Assembly: GCA_017541035.1 (NCBI GenBank)
Contig: JAFXZW010000114.1
Location: forward strand, 1-49,477
DNA length: 49,477 nucleotides
Source: Eubacterium sp.
Lineage (GTDB): Bacteria > Bacillota > Clostridia > Lachnospirales > Lachnospiraceae
Direction: 5' to 3'
This document shows positions 34,018 to 49,442 of this stretch, piece after piece; position 1 is the stretch's first letter, and every line of letters begins with the position of its first letter. The position numbers and the translations under genes were made by a program. The notes beneath the pieces are model-generated. The model made no database searches. It was given only the letters and a program-made list of their open reading frames with translations, and had not been told where the DNA came from.

Positions 34018-35900
34018 ATGAAGAAGAAAATGAAACGTCTTATGTCCGGCATCCTTGCGGGACTTCTTTCTTTTTCGATAACAGCCTGCGGCAGTTCGGA
34101 GAAGACAGCAACCACTGATACAGAAATAACCACATCCAAGGAAGGAAATGCTACGGAAGAAACGACCGAGAATAATAAGGAAAAAGACTCCGGACTTTCC
34201 GGTTATACGGCAACAGAGCTTGCAGTGATCCTGGGCAACGGCTTTAACCTTGGCAACACCATGGAAGCTGCGGACATGACCAGGCCGGGAGACTATGCAA
34301 AAAACCAGCCGGCACACTTCGAAACCCTGTGGGGCCAGCCCATCACAACAAAGGAATGATCGATGATATCCACAATGCGGGTATGGATACCCTTCGGATT
34401 CCCGTTGCCTGGACAAATGCCATGGATATAGAAAATGGGGATTATACCATCGGCGAAGCATATATGGCACGTGTCAAGGAGATCGTGGACTGGGCTTTGG
34501 AGGACGGTATGTTCGTAGTCCTGAACGATCACTGGGACGGCCAGTGGTGGGGCGTTTTCGGAGAAAAGGATGAGTCCCGCCGAAAGATCGGCTATGACAT
34601 TTTCACAAGTATGTGGACCCAGATTGCGGATACGTTCAAGGATTATGATGAGCATCTGATCCTAGAGGGCGGAAATGAGGAACTGGGCGACCGATTCAAT
34701 GATGTCGGGAATCCCATTGTACAAAACGGAAACGGCCTCTCCAAGGATGAATGCTATGAGACGGCGAATAAAGTGAATCAGCTTTTTGTAGATACCGTCC
34801 GTGCATCCGGCGGAAAGAACGCAGAACGTTTCCTTCTGATTCCGGGATATGGTACGGATATTACCCAGACACTGGACAGCCGTTGGAAGATGCCCACAGA
34901 TACCGCGAAGGAGAAGCTTTTCCTGTCCGTGCATTACTACACTCCCTGGAGCTACTGCGGCAGTTCGGGCTCTTCGACCTGGGGCACAAAGAAGAATTAT
35001 GAGGAAATGAACACCCTTATGAAGAATCTTTCCGTTTATCCGGAAAAGGGAATCCCGGTGATCATCGGTGAGTGCGGTGTGCTTCCTACCTCCAACCGTG
35101 AAATGAAGCCCAACTGGAACCTCTGGTATGATAATTTCTTTGCCAACTGCGATCTGTACGGGTATGTTCCTCTGCTTTGGGATACCGGAAATATGCTGGA
35201 TCGGAATACGCACAAATGGATTGATGACGGTGTGAAGGATTTCCTGATTCAGAACAGCTATGAGAAGCAGAAGTCCATGTCTCCGGAGGAGATCAGGGCC
35301 GCTGCGGAGAAAAGAATGGCTGACGGTTTAAGCGCCGCTCCCGAAACCTTTGATTCCTCCCAGAAGCTGGCAGGTGACGGAACGGCGATTGCCTGGATCA
35401 TGTGGGATTCCATGGACTGGAGTATCGTTTACAGCGTGGGTGATACCTATGATCCGGATTCCAAAACCTTCGGCATCAAGGCAACTGATGTAGAAGTGAC
35501 AGGTGAGGGAACCTATACCATTTCCCTTGATTTCACCGGTACGGATAATAAGAAATCGGACGGAACCGCATTCTCGGCCATCGGTATTGCCAATGGCGAG
35601 GAGCTTTTCCCCGGTTATATCATCAATATCAAAAAGGTGCTCATTAACGGTAAGGAATATAAGCTGCACGGCAGAAACTATACCTCCTCGGATGACGGAC
35701 TTTGCACACGGAGCAACCTTTATAATGAATGGGTACCCAGTGTTCCCGAAGACGCCCGGACCATGGGAGGCGGAACTACAGGCTGCAGTCCTACCATTCT
35801 GGAAAAGGAGTGCGGAGCAGTGGAAACCATCGAAATCACCTTTGACTACCTCCCGGGTGAACAGGGAATCTCAACGAATGATGCCAATTCCAAGAACTGA
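34018..35900 (+). pseudogene. GH5-type endo-glycanase lipoprotein with C-terminal NLYNEW module, interrupted by a -1 frameshift
   Basis: A secreted glycoside hydrolase split in two frames. The first (34018-34359) has a lipoprotein signal peptide with lipobox SITAC and Cys24, a Thr/Glu spacer and the GH5 opening LGNGFNLGNTMEA. It stops at TGA 34357-34359. One missing base in AAGGA(A)ATG at about 34355 restores the text WGQPITTKE-MIDDIHNAGMDTLRIPVAW, which continues to 35900. The second part has the acid/base Glu in EGGNEELG, HYYTPW, the nucleophile Glu in VIIGECG and LLWDTGN. The last 160 residues (35370-35858) are a module shared with the 39.5 kb surface protein. It may be a true mutation or a sequencing error. 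Confidence 0.85.
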
Positions 35901-35926
35901 GAAAGCATGGGCGGGAGGTACCTCAT

Positions 35927-37411
35927 TTGAATAATAAGTACTATGACACCTCAGAGTGGCTGCGTCACATCGAAAAGGGGATCGCACAGGGCCCCTTTTC
36001 GGCGGACTGGGACAGCCTTTCCTCCTTCCGGGTGCCGGATTGGTTCTTAAAGGAGAAATTCGGAATCTTTCTTCATTGGGGACTCTACAGTGTTCCGGCC
36101 TACCGGAATGAGTGGTATTCCCGGAATATGTATATCCAGGGGACGCCGGAATTTGACTATCATAGAAAGACCTACGGTCCTCAGAAGGATTTCGGATATA
36201 AGGATTTTATCCCCCTTTTTCGGGCAGAGCATTTTGATCCGAAGGAATGGATCCGTCTTTTTAAAGAAGCGGGAGCACGTTATATCTTCCCGGTAGCCGA
36301 GCATCACGACGGCTTTCAGATGTACCGATCGGCTCTTTCTCCCTGGAATTCCTTTGAAATGGGTCCGAAGAGGGATGTGATCGGTGAACTGAAGCGTGAA
36401 GCCGAAAAGGAAGGACTGCATTTCTGTACCTCCAGCCACCGGGCAGAGCATTGGTGGTTTATGGGGCATGGGAAGGAATTTGACAGCGATGTGAAAGACC
36501 CCCTGTCCCTGGGAGATTTCTACTGGCCTGCCATGCCGGAGCCGGATAATTTTGATATGCGGAGCACCCCCTTTCCTACGGAGGAATACCTGAACGACTG
36601 GCTCATCCGTACGGTGGAGCTGATCGATCTTTTTTCTCCGGAGCTTCTTTACTTTGACTGGTGGATCGGACATGAAGCCTTTAAACCCTATCTGCAAAAG
36701 CTGATGGCTTATTACTATAATCGAATGGCAGCATCCGGAAAAAGGGCTGCTGTCTGCGGAAAGCTGGATGATATTGCTTTCGGAACAGGCATCGCGGAAG
36801 TGGAGCGCGGCGGTTTCGCGGAAGCAAAGGCTTTCCCCTGGCAGACGGATACAGCCGTGGCACGTAATTCCTGGTGTCATACCACATCCCTGAATTATAA
36901 GAGCAGCCGGGAGATCATCGGTAACCTGATCGATGTAGTGAGCAGGAACGGGAATCTTCTTCTGAATGTTGGTCCCACCGCGGATGGAACGATCCCGGAG
37001 GGCGACAGAAGGATTCTTTCCGATGTGGGAGAGTGGTTAAGGATCAACGGTGAAGCTGTCTACGGAAGTCATGTATGGCGCATCTCGGGAGAAGGACCTA
37101 CAAAGGATGAAGAGGGCGCCTTTAAGGATGATACCGAAAAGACCTATACGGATCAGGATATCCGTTTTACCACCGGTCATGGAGCCATCTACGCTTTCGC
37201 CATGCATTTCCCCGATACGGGCAAACTGCTTATCCGGTCAATGCCGGCGAAGGATACGGAACAGGCTCCGGCTTTTCTGGGAATCATTCGGAATGTCCGT
37301 ATACTGGGATTTGATGAGTCCGTGAGGTTTGAAAGAAGGGAGGACGGACTTCTGGTTACAGCTGATGTGTCCTCCGCTTTCCCGGTGGTGATCAGGATCG
37401 ATGTTGCTTAA
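35927..37411 (+). CDS. GH29 alpha-L-fucosidase, cytoplasmic
   Basis: Removes alpha-L-fucose from glycans with retention. The 494-residue protein shows the GH29 pattern WFLKEKFGIFLHWGLYSVPAY.NEWY, the VAEHHDGFQMYRS motif, the nucleophile region LLYFDWWIG with Asp, and GNLLLNVGPTADGTIP. There is no signal peptide, so it should act on imported oligosaccharides. The start is TTG 35927 with GGGAGG 10 bases before it. It follows the GH5 gene by 26 bases and precedes the sensor kinase by 34, so all three are likely one operon. The acid/base residue cannot be named with confidence. Confidence 0.9.
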   Translation: MNNKYYDTSEWLRHIEKGIAQGPFSADWDSLSSFRVPDWFLKEKFGIFLHWGLYSVPAYRNEWYSRNMYIQGTPEFDYHRKTYGPQKDFGYKDFIPLFRAEHFDPKEWIRLFKEAGARYIFPVAEHHDGFQMYRSALSPWNSFEMGPKRDVIGELKREAEKEGLHFCTSSHRAEHWWFMGHGKEFDSDVKDPLSLGDFYWPAMPEPDNFDMRSTPFPTEEYLNDWLIRTVELIDLFSPELLYFDWWIGHEAFKPYLQKLMAYYYNRMAASGKRAAVCGKLDDIAFGTGIAEVERGGFAEAKAFPWQTDTAVARNSWCHTTSLNYKSSREIIGNLIDVVSRNGNLLLNVGPTADGTIPEGDRRILSDVGEWLRINGEAVYGSHVWRISGEGPTKDEEGAFKDDTEKTYTDQDIRFTTGHGAIYAFAMHFPDTGKLLIRSMPAKDTEQAPAFLGIIRNVRILGFDESVRFERREDGLLVTADVSSAFPVVIRIDVA

Positions 37412-37445
37412 CGCCTGTGTAAAATGACAGTACGGAGTATGGTCG

Positions 37446-39254
37446 ATGTTACGTGACAAGCTGAAAAATCTGAAGCTGCGGCAGAGAATGTTGCTGGTCT
37501 ATGCGATCGGCTGTCTTCTGCCGCTTCTTTTTATTGTGGTTTTCATGATCAATTCCTCACGTAACACACTGATCTCAATGGAGATTGCCGACGAAAAGCA
37601 GAAAATGAACACAGTGAAGGAAGAGCTGGAGGAAGCTATGGATCGTTCCGTGGATCTGTCCGAGCGGATGTTCTTTGACAGTATGCTTCAGATGATCGGT
37701 ATTTCTCCTGTCGCCGAGGAAGATACCCTGCTTTTTGATTTCCGTGACTTTGACCACCTGATGAACTATGCACGGCAGAATGTCGGAAGCATCTCATCCA
37801 TTTCCATCTATGTAAATCCGGGTACCGTGGAAAGGGTGGATAACCGCCGTTTCCGTCTGATCACGGATACGATACGGGAAAAGGAATGGTACAAAAATAC
37901 CATTGCTGCTGCCGGACTCCCGAGCTGGTCCTATCTGACTGATTTCGCCACGGGCAGGCGAAGCATACGTCTGACGAGAATTCTGTATTCCCGCACCACC
38001 CGTGAGGAGATCGGTATCATCAGCATATCCCTGGATCCTGCTCTGACCGAGGATTTTGTCCTTGAAATGGAGGGCTTCACCGTCATGACATTGAATGACA
38101 GAAGCATCGTTCATGCCAATTTCGACATAACGGAGGAGGAAGCAGCGCTTCTTCTTTCCAAATCAGAAGCATCCGAAAATAATACACGTATCCGCTTTCG
38201 CGGTTTTGTCTGTGCGCTTACGGAAATCCGAATCACTCCCCGAACCTCCACGGATTACTATGAGATCCTTACGGCCAGACCTCTTGGAGATATCGATGCC
38301 GCTGTCCGCGGAAATATGAGAAGCACCGTGATCCCTCTTATTCTGGCAGCACTGGTCATGCTGCTTGCCATTTTTCTGTTCAACAGCTGGTTTACGAAGC
38401 GGATCACCGCCCTCGGTTACGCCATGCATAACGTGACCATGAAGAAATATGATGCGGCGGAAGATGTGATCGGTGATGCGAAGGATGAGATCTGGGAGCT
38501 TTATAATGATATGAATCATATGGTGACGGATATGCAGGAGCTGTCCGAAGCCGCTGCCAATGAGAGGATACAGAAGGAACTGATCTATTCCCGCCAGCGG
38601 GATGTGGAATTCAAGATGCTCACAACACAGATCAATCCGCATTTCCTCTATAACACGCTGGAAAATATCCGTATGCTTGCGGTGATCAATCATGAAAATG
38701 AGATTGAGGACATTTCCGTCCGGTTGACCAGGCTTCTCCGGAGCTCTCTGGAAGCCGGAAGCGAACTGAAGACCCTGGCCTGGGAGATGGATAAGGTTGA
38801 CTGTTATATCGGTATTCAGGATTACCGTTTCGGGGACCGGATCTCCGCCAGTATCGAATATGATCCGGAACAGGCGGAACAGGTAATGATCATGCCTTTT
38901 CTGATTCAGCCCTTCGTGGAGAATGCCTATGTCCATGCTATGGAGGAAATGGATGAGGGAGGACAGATCCTGATCCGGGCGGAAATCGGCAAAACTTTGG
39001 ATATCATCATTCAGGACAACGGACGCGGCATGAGCCGGAAGGAGCTGACCCGGATCCTGAGCAGTATGAATGATGTGGAAGAGCTGGACCGGACTCATAT
39101 CGGCGTTGCCAACGTAAATCAGCGGATCCGACTCCGTTTCGGGGAAGCCTACGGTGTTACCTTTACCAGTGAGGAAGGAAAGGGTACTACCGTGAAGCTG
39201 CATATGCCGCTGATCCGTAAAAATGAAGTTTCTCCACCCGGAAAAGAGGAATAA
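37446..39254 (+). CDS. YesM-type sensor histidine kinase
   Basis: Membrane sensor of the class that pairs with YesN-type AraC regulators in carbohydrate uptake loci. The 602-residue protein has membrane helices at about 16-35 and 294-313, an extracellular sensor domain between them (double Cache-like) and a HAMP linker. The His kinase domain has MLTTQINPHFLYNTLENIRML (phospho-acceptor His399), the N box QPFVENAYVHAM and the G boxes DNGRGMS and GVANVNQRIRLRFG. The partner regulator is probably the YesN-type gene at 46.8-48.4 kb on the other strand, not adjacent as is usual. Confidence 0.92.
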   Translation: MLRDKLKNLKLRQRMLLVYAIGCLLPLLFIVVFMINSSRNTLISMEIADEKQKMNTVKEELEEAMDRSVDLSERMFFDSMLQMIGISPVAEEDTLLFDFRDFDHLMNYARQNVGSISSISIYVNPGTVERVDNRRFRLITDTIREKEWYKNTIAAAGLPSWSYLTDFATGRRSIRLTRILYSRTTREEIGIISISLDPALTEDFVLEMEGFTVMTLNDRSIVHANFDITEEEAALLLSKSEASENNTRIRFRGFVCALTEIRITPRTSTDYYEILTARPLGDIDAAVRGNMRSTVIPLILAALVMLLAIFLFNSWFTKRITALGYAMHNVTMKKYDAAEDVIGDAKDEIWELYNDMNHMVTDMQELSEAAANERIQKELIYSRQRDVEFKMLTTQINPHFLYNTLENIRMLAVINHENEIEDISVRLTRLLRSSLEAGSELKTLAWEMDKVDCYIGIQDYRFGDRISASIEYDPEQAEQVMIMPFLIQPFVENAYVHAMEEMDEGGQILIRAEIGKTLDIIIQDNGRGMSRKELTRILSSMNDVEELDRTHIGVANVNQRIRLRFGEAYGVTFTSEEGKGTTVKLHMPLIRKNEVSPPGKEE

Positions 39255-39258
39255 GAAG

Positions 39259-39289
39259 AATGCGGTGCCAGATGGTACCGCATTTTTTA
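39259..39289 (+). terminator. Intrinsic terminator after the sensor kinase
   Basis: AATGCGGTGCC pairs with GGTACCGCATT (one G-U) and runs into six T. Confidence 0.9.
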
Positions 39290-39326
39290 TGAGTAAAATA
39301 ATTACCGCTTTTTAAGTGAAAATCCT

Positions 39327-39366
39327 AAGGTATCAATATTTTACCTTTCTTGTTAAAATTTTAACA
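39327..39366. promoter_or_regulatory. Palindromic operator candidates upstream of the surface protein
   Basis: TGTTAAAATTTTAACA (39351-39366) is a perfect 16-base palindrome, and AAGGTA...TACCTT (39327-39347) is a second dyad. The 215-base gap is AT-rich and otherwise holds only the upstream terminator and the ribosome site. TTGTTA (39350) with AATGTT 17 bases on is a poor promoter, as expected for an activated gene. Binding by the YesN-type regulator or another factor is inference. Confidence 0.45.
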
Positions 39367-39469
39367 GTCGTTAATGTTGTGATCACTCAGTTCCCACATT
39401 GGAAGAAAAAAGCCTTACGCAGGGACGGAATGTTCACAGGATCATCATGAAAAGAAGAGGAGAACGAAG

Positions 39470-41389
39470 ATGAAGAAACTGCTGAAACGCATTTCTGCAA
39501 CGCTCGTAGCCGGTGTGCTGGCAGTAGCCGCCGTACCTCACATTGCGTTTGCAGGAGAAGCAAGGGATGCCGAGATCGCCGCTTATAAGGACGGTACCGC
39601 ATACCTTTCCATCAACAATTCCGACTGGGCTGACTTTGATGCGACCTACACAACAGCGGAAATCACCGGAAACGGTACCTATACCGTATCCATGGAAGCA
39701 AAAGAACCCCAGAATCTGGCACAGTTTAATGCTCTTCAGGTAAAGAACGGTGAGACTGTGATGGGAAATCAGTCCATCGTGACCGTTGACTCCATTAAGA
39801 TCAATGGCTCTCCCATTGAAATGGCCGGTTACAGCTACACCTGTTCTGCAGATGGTGCCGGTATCGAGACACGTGTAAACCTTTATAATGAATGGAACAA
39901 GCCTACGGATGATTCCGGAGCGATCGCAAAGGATACCCGTTGTGAGCAGGATGCAGCAGGAGCTACCGCAATGCTCTGGGGAGCTGACAAGCTCGAAGGA
40001 TTCCAGTCCGTAGAAGTAACCTTTACCGTTTCCCATTTCGGTGAAAATGTAGCGGAAGAGGTAGTAAAGAACAAGGAAGCAAAGCCGCTTCCCGCTGAAG
40101 GAACTCTCACCTACATCCAGTACGCTGATAAGGACTGGGCTAACCAGACCTGGAGCGGCTCCGATGCGGAAACGATTGTCTGCAAGAATGCAACCGTTAC
40201 CGGTGCCGGTGAGTACACGGTAGGAATCGAGATCAACGCCAAGGCTGATGCACCGGCTAAAGGCTTTGCCTTTATCGATGTTGAGATCCTGAACGGCGAA
40301 GAGTATTTCCCCTATGGTTACATGAACATCAAGAACGTTAAGGTTAACGGTGCGGATGCCGCGCTGGAAGGCGCTCCCTACACCAGCTCCGATGACGGTG
40401 TAACAACTCGTGTAAACCTGTACAATGAATGGGTAGATACCTCCAATAAGGATTTCGGCGGAAGACTGGCAGAAGGCATCGACGCCAAGACAGCTTCCCC
40501 CGTTTCTCTGAAGATCGTGACTGAAAAGCCCGATGAGGAGATCAAGTCCGTAGAAGTAACCTATGAGCTTTTCACAGAAGGCGGAATTCCTTTTGGTTCT
40601 TATGTTGAAACCAAAGAAGAGCCCGTTGATACCACCGGCCCCTGGACAGCATTCATGATGTTCTCCGATGGTAAGGAACAGTCTTGGCAGAACTTCAACC
40701 CCGGCGTAGGTACGGAAGCAACCGTAACCGGTGACGGCGTTTATGAAGTAGCCATCAAGGCAGAAGATGTAAATGCAACCACCAAGGCAGAACCTCAGCA
40801 AGGCGCACTGGTATTCCTGGTTGATATTCAGGAAATGGGCAAGGCTATGAAGTCTGTCGGCACCCTTCGCGCAAATGATAAGGATGAACTCAAGGATACG
40901 GATGCCAAGGTTAAGATCGCCGTATTCGTAGACGGCAACAAGATCACAACCAACAGCGACAGTCTGGTTCTCGGTGATATCGAGGGTAACGGACGTTTCC
41001 GTATCGACATTTCCAACGCATATGACGGATCCGGCACAGGCATCGGTGAGAATCCGGCCTGCGATACCGCAGCACTGACTCCCGAGAAGGAAGTTCGGGT
41101 GGTATTCGCTATCTCCGGTACCGGCGTAGGTACAGCAGGTGATACCAACCTTGAGAAGTATCTGGAGGAGAAGGGTTACGTAGAGAAGGTAACCGAAGCT
41201 CCTACAACCGAGAAGGCTACTGAGGCTACAACAGCTGCTCCCACAACAGACACAACGGAAAAAGCCAAGACCGAGGAGAAGAGCGGCCTGTCCACAGGCG
41301 CGATCATCGGTATCGTATGCGGCGGTGTTGCAGTCGTTGCCGCAGCAGTATGCGGAATCCTTGTAGCAAAGAAGAAAAAGAAAGACTGA
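39470..41389 (+). CDS. Membrane-anchored surface protein with three NLYNEW modules
   Basis: Secreted protein of 639 residues with signal peptide (about 1-28, cut near AFAG-EA). It has three related modules of about 150 residues at 43-190, 213-367 and 391-554, a Thr/Glu/Pro linker (575-600), a C-terminal membrane helix (608-633) and the tail KKKKKD. There is no LPXTG. Module 2 has NGEE.FP.GY.NIK.V..NG, YTSSDDG (304-310) and NLYNEWV (316-322); module 1 has YTCSADG and NLYNEW; module 3 is more diverged. The same module ends the GH5 enzyme at 35.4-35.9 kb. I know no named family for it; carbohydrate binding at the cell surface is the likely job by context. Confidence 0.85.
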   Translation: MKKLLKRISATLVAGVLAVAAVPHIAFAGEARDAEIAAYKDGTAYLSINNSDWADFDATYTTAEITGNGTYTVSMEAKEPQNLAQFNALQVKNGETVMGNQSIVTVDSIKINGSPIEMAGYSYTCSADGAGIETRVNLYNEWNKPTDDSGAIAKDTRCEQDAAGATAMLWGADKLEGFQSVEVTFTVSHFGENVAEEVVKNKEAKPLPAEGTLTYIQYADKDWANQTWSGSDAETIVCKNATVTGAGEYTVGIEINAKADAPAKGFAFIDVEILNGEEYFPYGYMNIKNVKVNGADAALEGAPYTSSDDGVTTRVNLYNEWVDTSNKDFGGRLAEGIDAKTASPVSLKIVTEKPDEEIKSVEVTYELFTEGGIPFGSYVETKEEPVDTTGPWTAFMMFSDGKEQSWQNFNPGVGTEATVTGDGVYEVAIKAEDVNATTKAEPQQGALVFLVDIQEMGKAMKSVGTLRANDKDELKDTDAKVKIAVFVDGNKITTNSDSLVLGDIEGNGRFRIDISNAYDGSGTGIGENPACDTAALTPEKEVRVVFAISGTGVGTAGDTNLEKYLEEKGYVEKVTEAPTTEKATEATTAAPTTDTTEKAKTEEKSGLSTGAIIGIVCGGVAVVAAAVCGILVAKKKKKD

Positions 41390-41509: not shown

Positions 41510-43195
41510 ATGAAGGATAAAGAAACGACGGATAAGATGCCGTCGGTGTCCAAACCGGATGACCTGTTAAACAGAGTCATGGAAGAATCATCCTCAGCTT
41601 TCGAGGACGTAAATGCGGATGAAGCAGAAACGGCCATGGAAGAGATGGAGAAACGCCGGGAAGAAATGGAACAGGCAATTGCAGAAGATAAGCCTGCCCC
41701 AGGAGCCTATGCCATTCACATGAAACGGGCAAAGGAGCTTGAGGAACAGGTTCTCACTCTGGATAGCAAAAAGAAAAAAAAGGAACGGGAGCCTGTCTGG
41801 ATCGTTTACGGAATCCACAGGGTCGTAGCTCTCATCATGTTCTTCATGATCTTCATCCCCGGACTGAATCCCGCCAGGCTCAGCGGACTGATCTCCGATA
41901 ATCTGTCCCTGTTCACCTCGGCAATCTCCTATAACAGTCTGGTGGAAAATGTAGGGCGAGGATTCCGAAGGGGCTGGGTTGAGGAAAGTACCTTCCAGTT
42001 CATTTTCATAGCTGCCATCGTTCTTCTGGTTGGCATTCTGATCGCATCCGCCGCAGCCTGCATCAATCTGGGTAATCTGAAATGCAAGCGGATCGCCCAT
42101 CTGGTCAGTCTGGGAGGTATTCTGGTTTCCGGCGCGGGAATCGGACTTCTGATCGCAGGCTATGAAAAAATGAAGGAAAGCGGCAATCTGGAGAAGGCAG
42201 CACCGGAATTCTCTTTCGGAATTATTTTCTACATCATCTTGCTGTCAATCATTCTGATCGCTACGATCGTAGAACTGATCTGTACTCCGAAACCGGAAGC
42301 AGGCATGAAGGCAGCTATGGAATCCCGTTTTAAGCTGTTCCTGATGTTCCTTCCCTTTGCACTGTTGGCCTTTGTATTCTGCTATCTTCCTCTTTGGGGA
42401 TGGCGTTATTCCTTCTTCAATTATCGGTCCGGCGGAGAACTGACATCCGATAATTATGTGGGATTCTACTGGTTTAAGTATCTTTTCACCAATGCGGCAA
42501 CAAGGGGCGAGATCTTCCGGGTGCTGAGAAACACCCTGGCCATGAGTGGTCTTGGCATCCTGACAAGCTGGATTCCTCTGGCCTTTGCGGTCTTCCTGAC
42601 GGAGATCAATTCCAAGCCATTTAAGCGAATTGTCCAGACACTGACAACCATTCCCAACTTCATCAGCTGGATCCTGGTGTATACCGTTGCGCTGGCGATT
42701 TTCTCCACCGACGGTTTTATCAACACCATTTTCGGCGCAACAGGCAATCATCTGATGGGTGACAACTACACCTGGCTGAAGATGCTGCTCTGGGGACTGT
42801 GGAAGGGCGTAGGCTGGAGCGCCATCATTTATATCGCCGGTATTTCAGGAATCGACCGACAGCTTTATGAAGCGGCCCGGGTTGACGGTGCCGGACGATT
42901 CCAGAGAATCTGGCATGTGACGATCCCCGGACTTCTGCCTACCTATATGGTCATGCTGCTGATGGCAGTAGCGGGCATGCTGTCCAACGGTCTGGATCAG
43001 TATCTGGTATTCAGTAACGCAGATAATATGGAACATATGGAGGTTCTTGACCTTTACGTATATCATCTGGGCTTCGGCGGAGGCAGTATCCCGCTGTCCA
43101 CGGTAATCGGTATGGCCAAGTCTCTGATCAGTGTGGCGCTGCTCTTTATGGCTAACGGAATCTCCAAGCTGGTTCGCCATGAAAGTATCGTATAA
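41510..43195 (+). CDS. LplB-type ABC sugar permease with a 270-residue N-terminal membrane extension
   Basis: Inner-membrane permease of a CUT1-family oligosaccharide importer. The normal LplB-like domain runs from about residue 275 (LMFLPFALLAFVFCYLPLWGW) to 561 and has the EAA loop YEAARVDGAGRFQRIWHVTIPGL. The usual protein is about 300 residues; this one is 561. The extra part is a charged coiled-coil region (30-92) followed by about four membrane helices (97-117, 163-186, 197-217, 236-258) resembling nothing I recognise. GGGAGG precedes ATG 41510. It pairs with the YtcP-type permease 12 bases downstream. No ATPase gene is present, so a shared MsmK-like ATPase elsewhere is expected. Confidence 0.9.
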   Translation: MKDKETTDKMPSVSKPDDLLNRVMEESSSAFEDVNADEAETAMEEMEKRREEMEQAIAEDKPAPGAYAIHMKRAKELEEQVLTLDSKKKKKEREPVWIVYGIHRVVALIMFFMIFIPGLNPARLSGLISDNLSLFTSAISYNSLVENVGRGFRRGWVEESTFQFIFIAAIVLLVGILIASAAACINLGNLKCKRIAHLVSLGGILVSGAGIGLLIAGYEKMKESGNLEKAAPEFSFGIIFYIILLSIILIATIVELICTPKPEAGMKAAMESRFKLFLMFLPFALLAFVFCYLPLWGWRYSFFNYRSGGELTSDNYVGFYWFKYLFTNAATRGEIFRVLRNTLAMSGLGILTSWIPLAFAVFLTEINSKPFKRIVQTLTTIPNFISWILVYTVALAIFSTDGFINTIFGATGNHLMGDNYTWLKMLLWGLWKGVGWSAIIYIAGISGIDRQLYEAARVDGAGRFQRIWHVTIPGLLPTYMVMLLMAVAGMLSNGLDQYLVFSNADNMEHMEVLDLYVYHLGFGGGSIPLSTVIGMAKSLISVALLFMANGISKLVRHESIV

Positions 43196-43207: not shown

Positions 43208-44206
43208 ATGGAAGTCGGCGAAAAAGAACTAAGCAGAAAAGACCGGAAGAAGATCATCCTGGCTACAGCTCCCGACGGAAGTGAGATCAAGCTCACCGCC
43301 CGCAGCACGAAGCACAAATACACGGGAAAGGATATCATTTTCTACATCTTTGATTATACCTTTTACGCAATCTTTACGATATCCTGCTTCTTTCCGTTTT
43401 ACTACATTTTCATCAATACGATCTCGGATGCCAAGCTGGTTAACAGCGGATCCATTAACTTCATCCCGCAGGGACTGAACATCCAGAACTATCTGGCCCT
43501 CCGGAATGCATCAGATCTGGGAACCTCCATTCTGGTATCCGTCGGACGGACGATCCTGGGTACGGCACTTATGGTGATGGCCTCCGCATTTGTGGGCTAT
43601 CTTGTGACGAAGAAGGAAATGTGGGGAAGAAAATTCTTCTATCGTTTCCTGGTCATTACCATGTATTTCAACGCAGGTCTGATCCCCTGGTATCTGAATA
43701 TGCAGATGCTGGGACTGACCAACAGCTTTGCTGCCTATATCATACCAGGTATTGTGGCACCCTATAACATCATACTGGTAAAAACGTATATTGAATCCAT
43801 ACCATCGGAGCTGGAGGAGAGCGCCTTTATCGACGGGGCCTCCTTCTGGACGGTGTTCCGAAAGATCATCTGGCCGCTGTCAAAACCGATTCTGGCTACC
43901 ATAGCCATCTTCGGCGCCGTAGGACACTGGAACAGCTTCCAGGATTCACTGATCCTGATGACGGATTCTCCGAATCTTTACACGCTGCAGCACAGATTGT
44001 ATATTTATCTTAACACCAGCAGCAACATTGCGAATATCATGAACCAGTCCACCGGCGGCAACAATGCGGCTCTGGATTTCGCAAATAACGGACTTCTGAT
44101 CAAATACACCGTATCCATGGTATCGGTCATCCCGATTCTTCTGGTATATCCCTTCATGCAGAGGTATTTCGAGGAAGGTATCATGCTGGGTGCGGTCAAG
44201 GGATAA
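43208..44206 (+). CDS. YtcP-type ABC sugar permease
   Basis: Second membrane subunit of the importer. The 332-residue protein has a hydrophilic start of about 45 residues, then six membrane helices and the EAA loop LEESAFIDGASFWTVFRKIIWPLSKP. It ends with QRYFEEGIMLGAVKG, the common C-terminus of this family. AAGGGGG precedes the ATG. It is normal in length apart from the slightly long N-terminus. Confidence 0.93.
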   Translation: MEVGEKELSRKDRKKIILATAPDGSEIKLTARSTKHKYTGKDIIFYIFDYTFYAIFTISCFFPFYYIFINTISDAKLVNSGSINFIPQGLNIQNYLALRNASDLGTSILVSVGRTILGTALMVMASAFVGYLVTKKEMWGRKFFYRFLVITMYFNAGLIPWYLNMQMLGLTNSFAAYIIPGIVAPYNIILVKTYIESIPSELEESAFIDGASFWTVFRKIIWPLSKPILATIAIFGAVGHWNSFQDSLILMTDSPNLYTLQHRLYIYLNTSSNIANIMNQSTGGNNAALDFANNGLLIKYTVSMVSVIPILLVYPFMQRYFEEGIMLGAVKG

Positions 44207-44265: not shown

Positions 44266-46056
44266 ATGAAGAAAAGATCACTGAAAAAATCCATTCGTCG
44301 CGGACTGGCTGCCGGTCTTACCGCTGCCTTTATGATGGGAACACTGACATCCTGCGGCGGCTCCGGCAACAGTACCACGGAAGCGGGCGGAGCAAGCTCA
44401 CAGGAAGCTTCTTCTTCCGAAGGAGGCAGCTCAGGTACAAAAGCCATTAATCCTGAGGATTTCAAGAGGGAAACCCTTACACTGAATGTTTTCTCCGAGC
44501 GTGCCAATTACTCCGGTGAGCAGACCGGCTGGTCGGCAAAGCTGTTCCAGGATCTCTTTAACGTAAAGATCAATATCGTGCCGAACGGAGAAGGCGTTTT
44601 TGATACCCGTATGGAATCCGGTAATATGGGTGATATCGTAGTATTCGGTTCCGAGAATGATTACATGCAGGCACGTGATGCAGGACTCCTCTTTGACTGG
44701 GAAGAGGATAATACTCTGGCTGAGTACGGTCCCTACATCAAGGAAAATATGTCCTATGCTCTGGAAAAGAACAGAGGCATGAGTAAGGATAACAAGATCT
44801 ATGGTCTGGGCTATGAAGTAGCAACCAATTCCAAGGATCTGCAGAGCTTCTTCTATACCTGGGATATCCGCTGGGATCTCTATGCAAAGATCGGTTATCC
44901 TGAGGTGAAGACCATGGATGACCTGGTAGAGGTCTTCAAAAAGATGAAGGAAATCTGCCCGACAGACGACAACGGAAAGCCAACCTATGCTGCATCTCTG
45001 TGGCCGGACTGGGACGGTGACATGGTTATGTATGTAAAGTCCACCGCAACGGCATACTACGGCTATGATGAGTTCGGTGTAGGTCTGTATGATCCCTCTA
45101 CCGGAAAGTTCTACGGTGCACTGGATGATGATTCTCCGTATCTGCAAATGCTGGATTTCTATCACAAGCTGTATATGAATGATCTTCTGGATCCGGATTC
45201 CATGACAACGACCTACGATACCATGATCCAGAAAGTAAAGAGCAGCGGTACATTTTTCTCCATCTTCAACTATGCAGGATGTCTTGCCTATAACACTCCG
45301 GAGCATATGGAAAGCGGACGGATGATGAGAAGTCTGACACCGAAGGATGCTTCTCCCATTGTCTACGGTCTGAATGTCCTGGGTGGAAATAACTACTGGG
45401 CCATCGGTGCGAATACCGAGTATCCCGAAGTATGCATGGAGATCATCAATTACATGTGCACACCGGAAGGACGTATGAATTTCGAGTACGGTCCCAAGGG
45501 GATCACCTGGGATTATGATGAGGACGGAAATACCTACTTTACCGAACTTGGTAAGAAGACCAACAGTGATGGCTCCACCGTGCTGGAAGGCGGCGGATAC
45601 AGCGGAACCTTTAAGGATGGTCAGAACCAGATGAATATGACCACCTGGTCCATCGATGCATCCAACCCCGATTCCAACGGAGAGACCTATAATGACGAAA
45701 ACTGGAAATCCAATCAGTCGGAAGCAACCTGCGATGTAGATAAGGACTGGAGAGAGAAGACAGGTTGTACGACAACAAATGAGTATATGCTGAAGGGTAA
45801 CTACATGGTATCTCCCGGTTCAGCTTACGTTATGCCGATCAAGTCGGATGAGCTGAAAACCACCTGGGCGCAGGTTACCAAATGTATCCGTGAGAATTCC
45901 TGGAAAGCGATCTACACCAAGACCGATGAGGAATTCAAGTCTGTAGTCAATGCCATGAAGGCACAGGCAAAGGGCTTTGGTTATCAGGAATGCTGGAACT
46001 GGTGCAATGAGCAGGCAGCTCTCCGTAAGTCGGCAGAGGATTCCGCAGCAAACTAA
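44266..46056 (+). CDS. LplA-type extracellular solute-binding lipoprotein
   Basis: Captures oligosaccharide for the LplB/YtcP permeases. The 596-residue protein has a lipoprotein signal with lipobox LTSC and Cys30, a Gly/Ser spacer to about residue 60, and a family 1-like binding fold rich in Trp, Tyr and acidic residues (for example WSAKLFQDLFNVKINIVPNG and a Trp-rich end GYQECWNWCNEQAALR). AGGAGG precedes the ATG. Family members of this size bind long oligosaccharides; the exact ligand cannot be read. Confidence 0.93.
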   Translation: MKKRSLKKSIRRGLAAGLTAAFMMGTLTSCGGSGNSTTEAGGASSQEASSSEGGSSGTKAINPEDFKRETLTLNVFSERANYSGEQTGWSAKLFQDLFNVKINIVPNGEGVFDTRMESGNMGDIVVFGSENDYMQARDAGLLFDWEEDNTLAEYGPYIKENMSYALEKNRGMSKDNKIYGLGYEVATNSKDLQSFFYTWDIRWDLYAKIGYPEVKTMDDLVEVFKKMKEICPTDDNGKPTYAASLWPDWDGDMVMYVKSTATAYYGYDEFGVGLYDPSTGKFYGALDDDSPYLQMLDFYHKLYMNDLLDPDSMTTTYDTMIQKVKSSGTFFSIFNYAGCLAYNTPEHMESGRMMRSLTPKDASPIVYGLNVLGGNNYWAIGANTEYPEVCMEIINYMCTPEGRMNFEYGPKGITWDYDEDGNTYFTELGKKTNSDGSTVLEGGGYSGTFKDGQNQMNMTTWSIDASNPDSNGETYNDENWKSNQSEATCDVDKDWREKTGCTTTNEYMLKGNYMVSPGSAYVMPIKSDELKTTWAQVTKCIRENSWKAIYTKTDEEFKSVVNAMKAQAKGFGYQECWNWCNEQAALRKSAEDSAAN

Positions 46057-46161: not shown

Positions 46162-46818
46162 ATGAAAGTATTCAGTATTGACGGACCTCTTTATAAATTC
46201 GCAACGGCAGTGACCAGTGCATTTCTGCTCAGTCTCTGCTGGCTTGTAGGTACTGTGATCGGTCTGGGGCTTACCGTGGGGGTTTCTACGGTGGCCTGCT
46301 TTGACGTGGGGCTGAAAATGGTGGAAGGGAAGGAAGGATATATCGTCCGCCAGTATATTCAGGCCTACAAAAAGAATCTTCGTCACGGTATTCCCATGGG
46401 GATCATTTGCCTGATTTCCTTCTATACCGTGTATTTGGATTTTGAATTGTTCCGAAAAATCGAAAATGCAACGATTTTTCTCCCAATCTGGGGATTTTTG
46501 TCAGCGGCGATTTTCTTCTGCTGTTTTGTTTATGCTTTTCCCCTTTCCGCGCGGTATACGAATACTTTTACCAATACCATCAAGAATTCCTTCCGCATTT
46601 CAACCCGTTATGCGGGCAGGACGGCGCTGATGGCTGTCTGCCTCATCATTATCATTCTTGCATTCCAGTGGAATCTTACCACCATGTTGATCGGCCTTAT
46701 CATCGGTCCTGCCGCCATAATCCTTACCGTTTGCAGCTTCGCCATGCCGATCTTCCGGAGAATCCAGAAGGAGAATACGGAAGAAGGAATCGAAAGCTAC
46801 GATGAGCCGGAGGATTAG
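46162..46818 (+). CDS. YesL family protein (DUF624)
   Basis: Polytopic membrane protein found with LplA/LplB/YtcP importers and YesM/YesN systems; function unknown. The 218-residue protein has about five membrane helices, the KFATAVTSAFLLSLCWLVG start and the ARYTNTFTNTIKNSFRIST segment typical of DUF624. AAAGGA precedes the ATG. Its stop codon overlaps the stop of the convergent yesN-type gene by 3 bases, so there is no terminator between the two. Confidence 0.88.
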   Translation: MKVFSIDGPLYKFATAVTSAFLLSLCWLVGTVIGLGLTVGVSTVACFDVGLKMVEGKEGYIVRQYIQAYKKNLRHGIPMGIICLISFYTVYLDFELFRKIENATIFLPIWGFLSAAIFFCCFVYAFPLSARYTNTFTNTIKNSFRISTRYAGRTALMAVCLIIIILAFQWNLTTMLIGLIIGPAAIILTVCSFAMPIFRRIQKENTEEGIESYDEPED

Positions 46819-48404
46819 GAGGATAATATCTGCTTCCGGTATTCAGCCGGAGAGCTTCCGGTATATTTTTTAAACTTGATATGGAAATAATCCACATTTC
46901 GATAGCCCACCATCTCCGCCACGCGGTAGACGGGGGCTTTTGTTGTTGCCAGAATATCCTTTGCCTTCTCTACACGCAGAATATCCAGATAGGTATTGAA
47001 ATTCTGCCCCATCTTTCGACTGAAGATCTTACCCAGATAGGAGCTGTTGTAGCCGAAGAGGGGAGCAATGGTCTCCAAAGTAATATTCGTGGAGTAATTA
47101 TGATCGATATAGGAGATCACATCGTCAATGATATTGTCACGGGAGGTATATCCCAGAGCCGTCATGATGTGGTCGAACTGCTCCGTAAAGAAGAGGATCA
47201 GCTCATAAAGAAAATGACTGTTCCGGAAGAATTCCACCACCTCAACACCGGACCGGAAGGGAATTTCCGTCTGGTTATAAAGCCGCAGCAGTTTATCCTT
47301 GATGGAGAAGGCAAGATCCATCAGAAGCTTCTTCTGGTCATCCACGGAAAGGGGACAGCTTTGCTGGAGATAAAGTTCCATTTCATGCAGAGTTTCCGCG
47401 ATCTGTTTACGGTTGAATACCTGAAGCAGATTGATCAGCCGTTCCGTATATTCGGAAACAAAATGCTCGGTGATTTCCTTTTTCTCATTTTCCGAAAGCA
47501 TTTCCTGTTCCGTATCATAATCCGGAGCCGGATAGACAGACGGATCATAAACCATGGCATGCTGTCCGCGGTAGGCAAAAAAACGATGTTCCAAAAGAAG
47601 CAGCGCTTCCTGATAGGAGCGAGGAATATCCCCTACATGCTCCACAACGGAACCGCAGGCAATGAAGACCTGATCCAAAGGAGAATTATCCTCCGGAGGC
47701 AGTTCATTTTCGTATTTCCCGAGAAGTGTCTTCAGACGTTCAATAGGGTGGTGACCCTTCAGCAGGAGCACATCACGGTCATCAATGGTGATGGATTCCA
47801 GTTCTCTTTCATTGGGATTGGCAACACGAAGGATATCCGCAAGGCGGTAACTTCCTTTCTTGTCTTTTGCATAATCTTCACAGAAAAGTACCTGATAGGA
47901 GGAGTGGGTGAGAGAGAGGTCTCTGATCTCTTCCTCCCGCAGATCCAGTTCCCCCAGAAGAAAACCCCGCAGCAGGGATTTTCTTGTTTTGCTTAGAAAG
48001 CTGTCCTTTGAATGCTTCTGTCTTTTTTCTTCATCCAGCTCAGACTTTGCCTTTCGAAGTCCCTGAAGAAGCGCCTCCTTATCCACGGGCTTTGTCAGGT
48101 AAGCCAGGACGCCGTAGCTTATGGCGGTCTTGGCATATTCAAAATCCGAAAAGCCGGAGAGTACGATCACCCTTCCCTTGAAGCCGTTTTCACGGGCCTG
48201 CCGGATGACATCGAGTCCGGTCATCAGAGGCATACGGATATCGATCAGAACAACGTCCGGCTGATTTGTCAGGATATAATCCAGAGCATCTCTTCCGTTC
48301 GCAGCCTGACCGCTTACCGAAAAGCCTTCGGAATTCCAGTCAATGATACCTGAAAGTCCCATACGTATAATCTTTTCATCATCGGCAATAAGTACCTGAT
48401 ACAT
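46815..48404 (-). CDS. YesN-type response regulator with AraC DNA-binding domain
   Basis: Transcription factor, probably activated by the YesM-type kinase at 37.4 kb. The 529-residue protein has a receiver domain (1-120: acidic pair in ADDE, phospho-acceptor Asp55 in LIDIRMP, Lys in YLTKPVDK) and a middle helical region. Two AraC helix-turn-helix motifs close it (NITLETIAPLFGYNSSYLGKIFSRK and VYRVAEMVGYRNVDYFHIKFKKYTGSSPAEYRK). ATG 48404 follows AAGGGAGAA; the longer frame to 48446 adds 14 residues without a ribosome site. It is on the opposite strand to the genes it likely controls and downstream of the esterase gene. Confidence 0.92.
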   Translation of the reverse strand: MYQVLIADDEKIIRMGLSGIIDWNSEGFSVSGQAANGRDALDYILTNQPDVVLIDIRMPLMTGLDVIRQARENGFKGRVIVLSGFSDFEYAKTAISYGVLAYLTKPVDKEALLQGLRKAKSELDEEKRQKHSKDSFLSKTRKSLLRGFLLGELDLREEEIRDLSLTHSSYQVLFCEDYAKDKKGSYRLADILRVANPNERELESITIDDRDVLLLKGHHPIERLKTLLGKYENELPPEDNSPLDQVFIACGSVVEHVGDIPRSYQEALLLLEHRFFAYRGQHAMVYDPSVYPAPDYDTEQEMLSENEKKEITEHFVSEYTERLINLLQVFNRKQIAETLHEMELYLQQSCPLSVDDQKKLLMDLAFSIKDKLLRLYNQTEIPFRSGVEVVEFFRNSHFLYELILFFTEQFDHIMTALGYTSRDNIIDDVISYIDHNYSTNITLETIAPLFGYNSSYLGKIFSRKMGQNFNTYLDILRVEKAKDILATTKAPVYRVAEMVGYRNVDYFHIKFKKYTGSSPAEYRKQILSS

Positions 48405-48461
48405 TTTTATTCTCCCTTTAGATAAACGGCAGTCGTTTACGGACATACGGTTCTCAGAGTT

Positions 48462-49442
48462 TTACTGTACACCGGCTTTTTCTTTAATCTCTTCCACATA
48501 ACCGCTCTGCATCAGAATCCAGTTTACGGAATGCTGCATCCAGTTTGCTGCATAGGGATAGTACTGACAGGGATCCTGGGCAGTCACATAATCTGAAAGT
48601 GAGATTCCATGGGCACCGCCGGAATAGAGATGGAGTTCCACAGGTATTTTTTCCCGGCTTAAAGCCGCTGCCAGTTCCAGAGAGTTATCGGGAAGGATCA
48701 GTCCGTCATCAGCGCAATGCCAGATAAAGGCGGGACAGGTATCCTTCGTTACCCATTTCTGCAGGCAGTAACGTTCCTCCTGCTCCGGCGTGTATTCACC
48801 ATCGAATAGATAGGCATTCATGGCAGCCTCGAAATCCACGAAGCAGCGTCCCTCCGTCGGATCATAAACGAATATCTTTGAGAGGGGCATTTTGGGGTGC
48901 TTCTGACCGAAATCGACGGTTGAAAGGTCTGCGTCAGGAGAAAGCCCAATATCCATATGACGGTCTGTTTTCGTGAGATCGATCACAGGATAGCCGAGGA
49001 TCATTCCGTTGGGACGGATTTCCTGAAAACGTCCTTCATATTCAGGAAGAAGATCGGGATCATTCCAGAAAACCCCCAGCTGACAGGCTACATGGGCACC
49101 TGCAGAGAAACCTGCTACGTAAATCTGTTCCGGGTCAATATACCAGACATCGGATTTCTTCCTGATATACTCCACAGCTGCGGCTATATCGTGAAGCGGA
49201 CCCGGAGCTACTGCGTATTCTCCAATGCCGTAGCGAAGCACTGCTGCATGAAAACCTGCCGCCAGATAACGAAGAGCAACCGGATCCCCCTCCCGGTCCG
49301 AAAGGAAGCAGTAACCTCCTCCCGGACAGACGATCACCATGGGACGGGTGACCTCCTGCTGGTATTCGGCGGAATGCTCCAGACGGTAGACGGTAAGGGT
49401 GACATTTCTCTCCTCTGACAGAGTGATGATCTCTTGAAGCAT
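48462..49442 (-). CDS. Alpha/beta hydrolase, acetyl-ester type carbohydrate esterase
   Basis: Predicted serine esterase, probably deacetylating or de-esterifying imported oligosaccharides. The 326-residue protein has the oxyanion motif CPGGGY (39-44), nucleophile elbow GFSAGAH with Ser113, Asp in HCADDGLILP and His in GGAHG, the pattern of BD-FAE and xylan esterase-like proteins. There is no signal peptide, so it is cytoplasmic. AAAGGAA precedes ATG 49442. It lies 57 bases upstream of the yesN-type gene in the same direction, so the two are likely co-transcribed. Confidence 0.85.
   Translation of the reverse strand: MLQEIITLSEERNVTLTVYRLEHSAEYQQEVTRPMVIVCPGGGYCFLSDREGDPVALRYLAAGFHAAVLRYGIGEYAVAPGPLHDIAAAVEYIRKKSDVWYIDPEQIYVAGFSAGAHVACQLGVFWNDPDLLPEYEGRFQEIRPNGMILGYPVIDLTKTDRHMDIGLSPDADLSTVDFGQKHPKMPLSKIFVYDPTEGRCFVDFEAAMNAYLFDGEYTPEQEERYCLQKWVTKDTCPAFIWHCADDGLILPDNSLELAAALSREKIPVELHLYSGGAHGISLSDYVTAQDPCQYYPYAANWMQHSVNWILMQSGYVEEIKEKAGVQ

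Follow-up and report, generated by a model that had tools for sequence, protein, structure and literature searches.

A candidate glycan-binding module shared by a GH5 enzyme and an importer-linked surface protein in Clostridia

Organization of the locus

The stretch of DNA analysed here (the window) is the whole of contig JAFXZW010000114.1 (C34) of Eubacterium sp., a rumen bacterium, and is 49,477 bp in length, from an assembly of 2.98 Mb that is 95% complete. It encodes a module that lies at the C-terminus of a glycoside hydrolase family 5 (GH5) enzyme and recurs in a surface protein encoded beside an ATP-binding cassette (ABC) importer, and that is a candidate glycan-binding domain. Between coordinates 34018 and 49442 the genes are ordered GH5, GH29, histidine kinase, surface protein, two ABC permeases, solute-binding protein and DUF624 protein, with a response regulator and an esterase on the opposite strand (Table 1). 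A plasmid search gave no match.

The GH5 gene is split in the window assembly by a frameshift at ~34329–34359 that leaves its two pieces in different frames and could be either an assembly error or a real mutation. Some relatives have intact orthologues (e.g. loci L034, L037, and L044), with which the LGNGFNLGNT of the first piece aligns. Matches of the second piece in the PDB are headed by 6xrk and 1edg. Several of the PDB matches of these GH5 enzymes probably belong to GH5_4, and one of them, 6xsu, is so named. Known structures related to the GH5 are those of cellulases, xyloglucanases, and mixed-linkage glucanases; for the E. ruminantium GH5 the best of them is 3zmr, the B. ovatus GH5. No LPXTG motif is seen in the translation of the surface protein.

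Table 1. Features of the locus, with coordinates in the window
Feature	Coordinates	Strand	Basis and remarks
GH5 gene, first piece	34018..34359	+	Open reading frame (ORF): signal peptide with lipobox cysteine and start of catalytic domain; ends in frameshift
GH5 gene, second piece	34329..35900	+	Remainder of catalytic domain and C-terminal module; Pfam Cellulase 4.1e-42
GH5 C-terminal module (GH5 tail)	35367..35897 (profile core 35379-35861)	+	Pairwise and profile comparison; 80 related loci kept
GH29 alpha-L-fucosidase	35927..37411	+	Pfam 5.5e-97
Sensor histidine kinase	37446..39254	+	Pfam His_kinase 6.8e-22
Surface protein	39470..41389	+	Translation: signal peptide, M1, M2, M3, Thr/Glu-rich linker, C-terminal membrane helix, lysine-rich end
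Module M1	39590..40045	+	Pairwise and profile comparison
Module M2	40088..40606	+	Pairwise and profile comparison
Module M3	40634..41128	+	Remote relative of M1 by hhalign; pairwise not significant
Likely membrane anchor, then KKKKKD	41297..41368	+	Translation
ABC permease 1	41510..43195	+	Pfam BPD_transp_1; stays beside surface gene in related loci
ABC permease 2	43208..44206	+	Pfam BPD_transp_1 2.7e-11; same order in related loci
Extracellular solute-binding lipoprotein	44266..46056	+	Pfam SBP_bac_1
DUF624 membrane protein	46162..46818	+	Pfam 2.8e-12
AraC-type response regulator	46815..48446	-	Pfam Response_reg and HTH_18
Alpha/beta-hydrolase esterase, BD-FAE like	48462..49442	-	Pfam 2.6e-19

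Relationship of the GH5 tail to the surface protein modules

An earlier reading of the window from its sequence alone (the sequence-only reading) had taken the GH5 tail and three segments of the surface protein to be the same module. This is borne out for M1 and M2 and not for M3. With Smith-Waterman scores set against 500 shuffles, M2 scores 225 with the GH5 tail (z 28.5), M1 scores 148 with the GH5 tail (z 19.2), and M1 and M2 score 149 with each other (z 17.9); profile-profile comparison by hhalign gives these three a probability of at least 99%. M3 has z values of only 3.0 with M1, 2.8 with M2, and 1.1 with the GH5 tail, none of them significant, and its hhalign probabilities are 89% with M1 (over 130 columns), 16% with M2, 36% with the GH5 tail, and 81% with the last module of distant surface-protein homologues. 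As a control, the module sets were compared with three unrelated families (21 comparisons), all of which gave 1.6% or less. Judged by these scores, the GH5 tail, M1, and M2 are one family, and the surface protein consists of two module copies and one remote relative, not of a real triplicate. The coordinates first proposed for the three family members (35370–35858, 39596–40039, and 40106–40570) agree with those given by the family profile (35379–35861, 39593–40039, and 40100–40576), and the sequence marks quoted as common to the GH5 tail and M2 are present.

Distribution and conservation of the module

A scan of GTDB in which 84,980 species were represented by one genome each yielded 405 pattern matches, including 229 relatives, the best 80 of which were kept; locus counts below refer to these 80 unless another sample is given. 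The relatives are labelled as Lachnospiraceae, Oscillospiraceae, Christensenella, other Clostridia, and one Anaerolineaceae bin. Searches across the order and the class of the window genome found the module in 2 of 295 and 12 of 391 genomes respectively (its own included in both, and ten of the twelve weak), and the module is thus widespread but sparse. Carbohydrate-binding modules (CBMs) are in general contiguous modules on carbohydrate-active enzymes, and this one is on a GH5 protein in all 80 loci and at its C-terminus in 79. Among GH5 proteins with a complete N-terminus, 66 of 69 are 580–690 residues long. Large GH5-Big_2 proteins, and one Big_2 protein whose dockerin match is below threshold, have very remote relatives of the module (L119, L120, L121, L122, L123, L128, and L125).

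An alignment of 98 modules has five invariant columns (Y50, E78, T106, T114, and R115), and conservation is 90% or higher at W18, F69, Y105, N117, N120, and W122. In an unrooted maximum-likelihood tree of 99 modules (60 GH5 tails and 39 surface modules), whose bootstrap is not fully settled, one branch (100/99) parts all of the GH5 tails from all of the surface modules and is present in 200 of 200 bootstrap trees. The simplest reading, not proved by the tree, is that of one old split that has been kept since. The GH5 tail of L065, a bin labelled Anaerolineaceae (Chloroflexota), pairs in this tree with that of Clostridiales L055 (100/94), which suggests either a mislabelled bin or a transfer.

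The modules are in tandem on the surface protein, and they have a few sub-threshold Pfam matches to Big and PKD domains, as might be expected of a structural or immunoglobulin-like stalk that raises the enzyme and the surface protein above the wall. We regard such a spacer as quite improbable, because the GH5 tail is more conserved than the catalytic domain that it would carry: each of 59 distant full-length GH5 proteins resembles that of the window more in its tail than in its catalytic domain (means of 58% and 51%), a difference that is biased upwards by the choice of loci on tail similarity. Eleven of the 80 proteins, truncated or with stops, were dropped from this comparison.

Search for a known module family

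The sequence-only reading recognised no named carbohydrate-binding family in the module, and this stands as far as searches of Pfam and the PDB extend. No Pfam family exceeds the cut-off in the module region of the window proteins, ten distant surface proteins, or 98 single modules, the best match of the latter (E 0.0014) being to an unrelated family, and NCBIfam has nothing above cut-off for the window surface protein and GH5 pieces. Searches of the PDB by sequence and profile returned no match to the module apart from 7c5x, which was judged to be chance (E 0.0022 when 98 modules were searched as a profile; its 21 bits over the whole chain add up from three repeats of 4–8 bits each). No credible PDB match came from profiles made of the surface protein or of the distant GH5-Big_2 proteins. 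Matches of the surface protein to Podoplanin and PdsO are below cut-off and lie mostly on the linker and membrane helix. The sequence-only reading had also compared the surface protein with SusD-type binders. SusD is an outer-membrane lid protein, and no SusD Pfam family is matched at E 1 by the surface protein or ten homologues (for L107, among the best 25 of 35 matches); any resemblance is confined to role.

CBM65, a family with xyloglucan-binding members (excerpts of PMC4954948), was considered and rejected. CBM65_1 is absent from the 15 families matched by any of the 98 modules at E 0.1, while the same model does match elsewhere in the window genome, and comparison of the module with 32 CBM65 domains (cut out by motif) gives hhalign probabilities of 0.1–2.0%. 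At the level of profiles the two families are unrelated.

The module might instead belong to a named CAZy family that lacks a Pfam model (e.g. CBM72 or the module of R. albus Ra1831), in which case only the surface protein and the locus would be new; this is compatible with a glycan-binding role, and we think it rather unlikely. CBM72 modules are found at the C-termini of rumen glycoside hydrolases, in some cases in tandem (excerpts of PMC4725902), and Ra1831 is a GH5_4 enzyme whose xyloglucan-binding module bears a distant likeness to CBM65 (excerpts of PMC4954948). The low values of the direct CBM65 comparison speak against this reading. As for CBM72, its core is given as 134 residues with a key W-Y-W spaced 31 and 12 (excerpts of PMC4725902), for which there is no obvious fit, by spacing and not by alignment, to the conserved aromatics W18, Y50, F69, Y105, and W122 of the ~160-residue module.

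The surface protein and its tie to the importer

Orthologues of the surface protein are present in 11 of 99 genomes searched (its own included), and module-bearing surface proteins in 24 of the 80 loci, seven of them of the genus and 17 distant. Loci L042, L045, and L089 have a related surface protein that has only the last module type in common with the module-bearing ones. In L042 (7343–9160) and L045 (14624–16429) the same operon position holds a protein with two different N-terminal modules followed by the last-module type and a membrane anchor; membership of these N-terminal modules in the present family is not supported (hhalign 0.7–40%). In the surface protein of L107 (1106–3409) the three modules are preceded by a hydrophobic helix at the N-terminus and a stretch that resembles a coiled coil, perhaps an alternative means of anchoring.

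Permease 1 (at least 45% identity, either strand) was sought in 81 loci, the 80 and the window, and is present in 26 of them, on the GH5 strand in 25 and on the other strand in L062. A surface gene with tandem modules accompanies it in 25 of the 26 and is directly upstream of the permease in 23; it is upstream of a split permease ORF in L102 and upstream of GH5 in L089. The usual order is surface gene, permease 1, permease 2, and solute-binding protein, often DUF624, and then GH5. The permease and GH5 genes of L102 (4280–5807) and L106 (8477–10489) are spread over two ORFs in these assemblies.

A second arrangement of this kind is present in the same genome (G000). On contig C101 a lipoprotein with three CBM65 domains (L152:8664-10595, - strand) is encoded beside two ABC permeases, a GH130, and a GH36, with a 482-residue ORF between genes of the locus. 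L155 has the same arrangement plus a solute-binding protein, L153 has a solute-binding protein and a GH130, and Pfam CBM65 is found in 16 of 200 genomes of the family of the window, its own included. The C101 locus would seem to serve capture of the galactoglucomannan type, with a known CBM as its module. That tandem modules occur on a surface lipoprotein beside an importer twice in one genome, with unrelated modules, raises the probability that the surface protein of the window has a capture role as well.

Predicted substrate

The neighbours of the genus loci point to xyloglucan. GH29 is beside GH5 in the genus loci and in L094, L099, L103, and L109. GH31 is downstream of GH29 in nine of 15 genus loci (L032–L039 and L044), and GH42 is present in L037, L039, and L044 (both by BLAST, with one of each confirmed by Pfam). 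Distant loci include L094 and L099, with both GH29 and GH42, L069, with GH42, L088 and L101, with more distant GH31 proteins, and L073 and L090, with GH43-CBM6. Together with GH5 and GH29, GH31 and GH42 match a published xyloglucan set: in the parts of PMC4780118 available, the tested xyloglucan locus of R. cellulolyticum has an ABC importer, a two-component system, a GH31 alpha-xylosidase, and a GH42 beta-galactosidase, and a figure legend draws alpha-fucosidase genes in the clusters of other species; an ABC importer, GH31, and GH42 also form the xyloglucan model of A. bescii (excerpts of PMC12710961). The solute-binding protein has no match in the PDB at E 0.001, neither to the A. bescii xyloglucan protein 9PMY nor to any other entry. 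On this genomic evidence the ligand is probably a xyloglucan-type beta-glucan, and the chances that xyloglucan itself is the main ligand are about even.

Proposed role

From the homology, domain architecture, synteny, and gene neighbours described above we infer a system in which the surface protein would keep a beta-glucan polymer (most likely xyloglucan) close to the membrane. The GH5 endo-beta-glucanase, a lipoprotein docked on the same polymer by its own copy of the module, would cut it, and the oligosaccharides would pass to the solute-binding protein for import by the ABC permeases. Cytoplasmic GH29, and in relatives also GH42 and GH31, would then remove side chains, and the two-component system would turn the locus on. 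A glycan-binding domain with a surface capture role is a fairly likely assignment for the module. The sequence-only reading had proposed such capture beside the importer; it gains from the conserved synteny across Clostridia and from the enzyme neighbours, and it loses the triplicate.

Several observations weigh against surface capture. The GH5 gene of the window is split. No surface gene was found within up to 10 kb on each side in 53 of the 80 GH5 loci, many of which are on short contigs. The surface homologues of L051, L067, and L098 have no C-terminal membrane helix, and a simple lipobox pattern is found in just 44 of the 69 GH5 proteins with a complete N-terminus, such that anchoring is not uniform. 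In L062 (2–4423, - strand) a close relative of permease 1 near a module-bearing GH5 has a GH94 phosphorylase-type gene upstream, in the place of the surface gene, although GH94 is itself a beta-glucan enzyme. Finally, the closest GH31 in the window genome is 29% identical and on another contig, and GH42 has no match there in a search that had no positive control; the xyloglucan set of the window genome is therefore incomplete, and the species may follow the pathway in part or rely on a different beta-glucan.

The 53 loci also bear on a docking function, in which the module would link the enzyme and the surface protein to each other or to the importer in a membrane complex without direct glycan contact. 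Docking could account for the same module on both partners in conserved loci and for the strongly conserved polar stretch T-R-x-N-L-Y-N-E-W, but most of the GH5 loci have no surface gene in the DNA covered, many already have a lipobox, and the very remote relatives in GH5-Big_2 and Big_2/weak-dockerin proteins are in the usual setting of a CBM; we judge it unlikely.

In many gut Clostridia this enzyme and surface protein recur as a pair next to the same sugar importer, which suggests that surface capture by this module is a conserved means by which Gram-positive bacteria retain plant polysaccharide on the cell. It is conceivable, at somewhat less than an even chance, that many gut Clostridia use a Sus-like design without an outer membrane, in which a tandem-module capture protein is encoded with an ABC importer beside a membrane-bound endo-enzyme with the same module, and that one genome has come to this design with two or more unrelated module families, among them that of the window and CBM65.

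Comparison with known systems

How polysaccharide is retained before import in Gram-positive gut and rumen bacteria is poorly known, and the published xyloglucan models begin at the solute-binding protein (PMC4780118 and PMC12710961, in the parts available). Because the surface gene is tied to the importer and the endo-enzyme has the same module, capture can be put to a direct test, and with a model of the module annotators could spot such loci and enzymes in about two hundred genomes. Neither the module or surface protein nor the tie to the importer was found described in the open-licence literature searched, including the excerpts consulted of PMC10318527, PMC9675976, and PMC10076258, and it is the module family and this tie that may be new here. 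Surface proteins built of glycan-binding modules are already known, both from Bacteroides surface binders and from Sas20 (excerpts of PMC9112005).

A close parallel in gene content is the R. cellulolyticum xyloglucan locus (SBP2458 ABC transporter, Xyl31A, Gal42A, Glu3A, and a two-component system), which shares its importer, two-component regulator, and GH31 and GH42 neighbours with the genus orthologues; there, however, extracellular cutting is by cellulosomal enzymes, and the available parts of PMC4780118 do not mention a surface capture protein. The B. ovatus xyloglucan locus likewise combines a GH5 endo-enzyme, separate surface glycan-binding proteins, and an importer (excerpts of PMC12710961), but is Gram-negative with TonB-dependent SusC/SusD, and the surface protein of the window matches no SusD-type family. 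CBM72 is similar in its C-terminal position on rumen glycoside hydrolases and its tandem copies in some, and would differ, by description, in its length and the spacing of its key aromatics (excerpts of PMC4725902). The C101 CBM65 lipoprotein of the same genome also has tandem glycan-binding modules and is encoded in a transporter locus, differing in its module family (hhalign 2% or less) and in its mannan-type enzymes. Sas20 of Ruminococcus bromii, likened here by description (excerpts of PMC9112005), acts on starch within an amylosome complex, and like the surface protein of the window it is a Gram-positive non-catalytic surface protein, with two glycan-binding domains.

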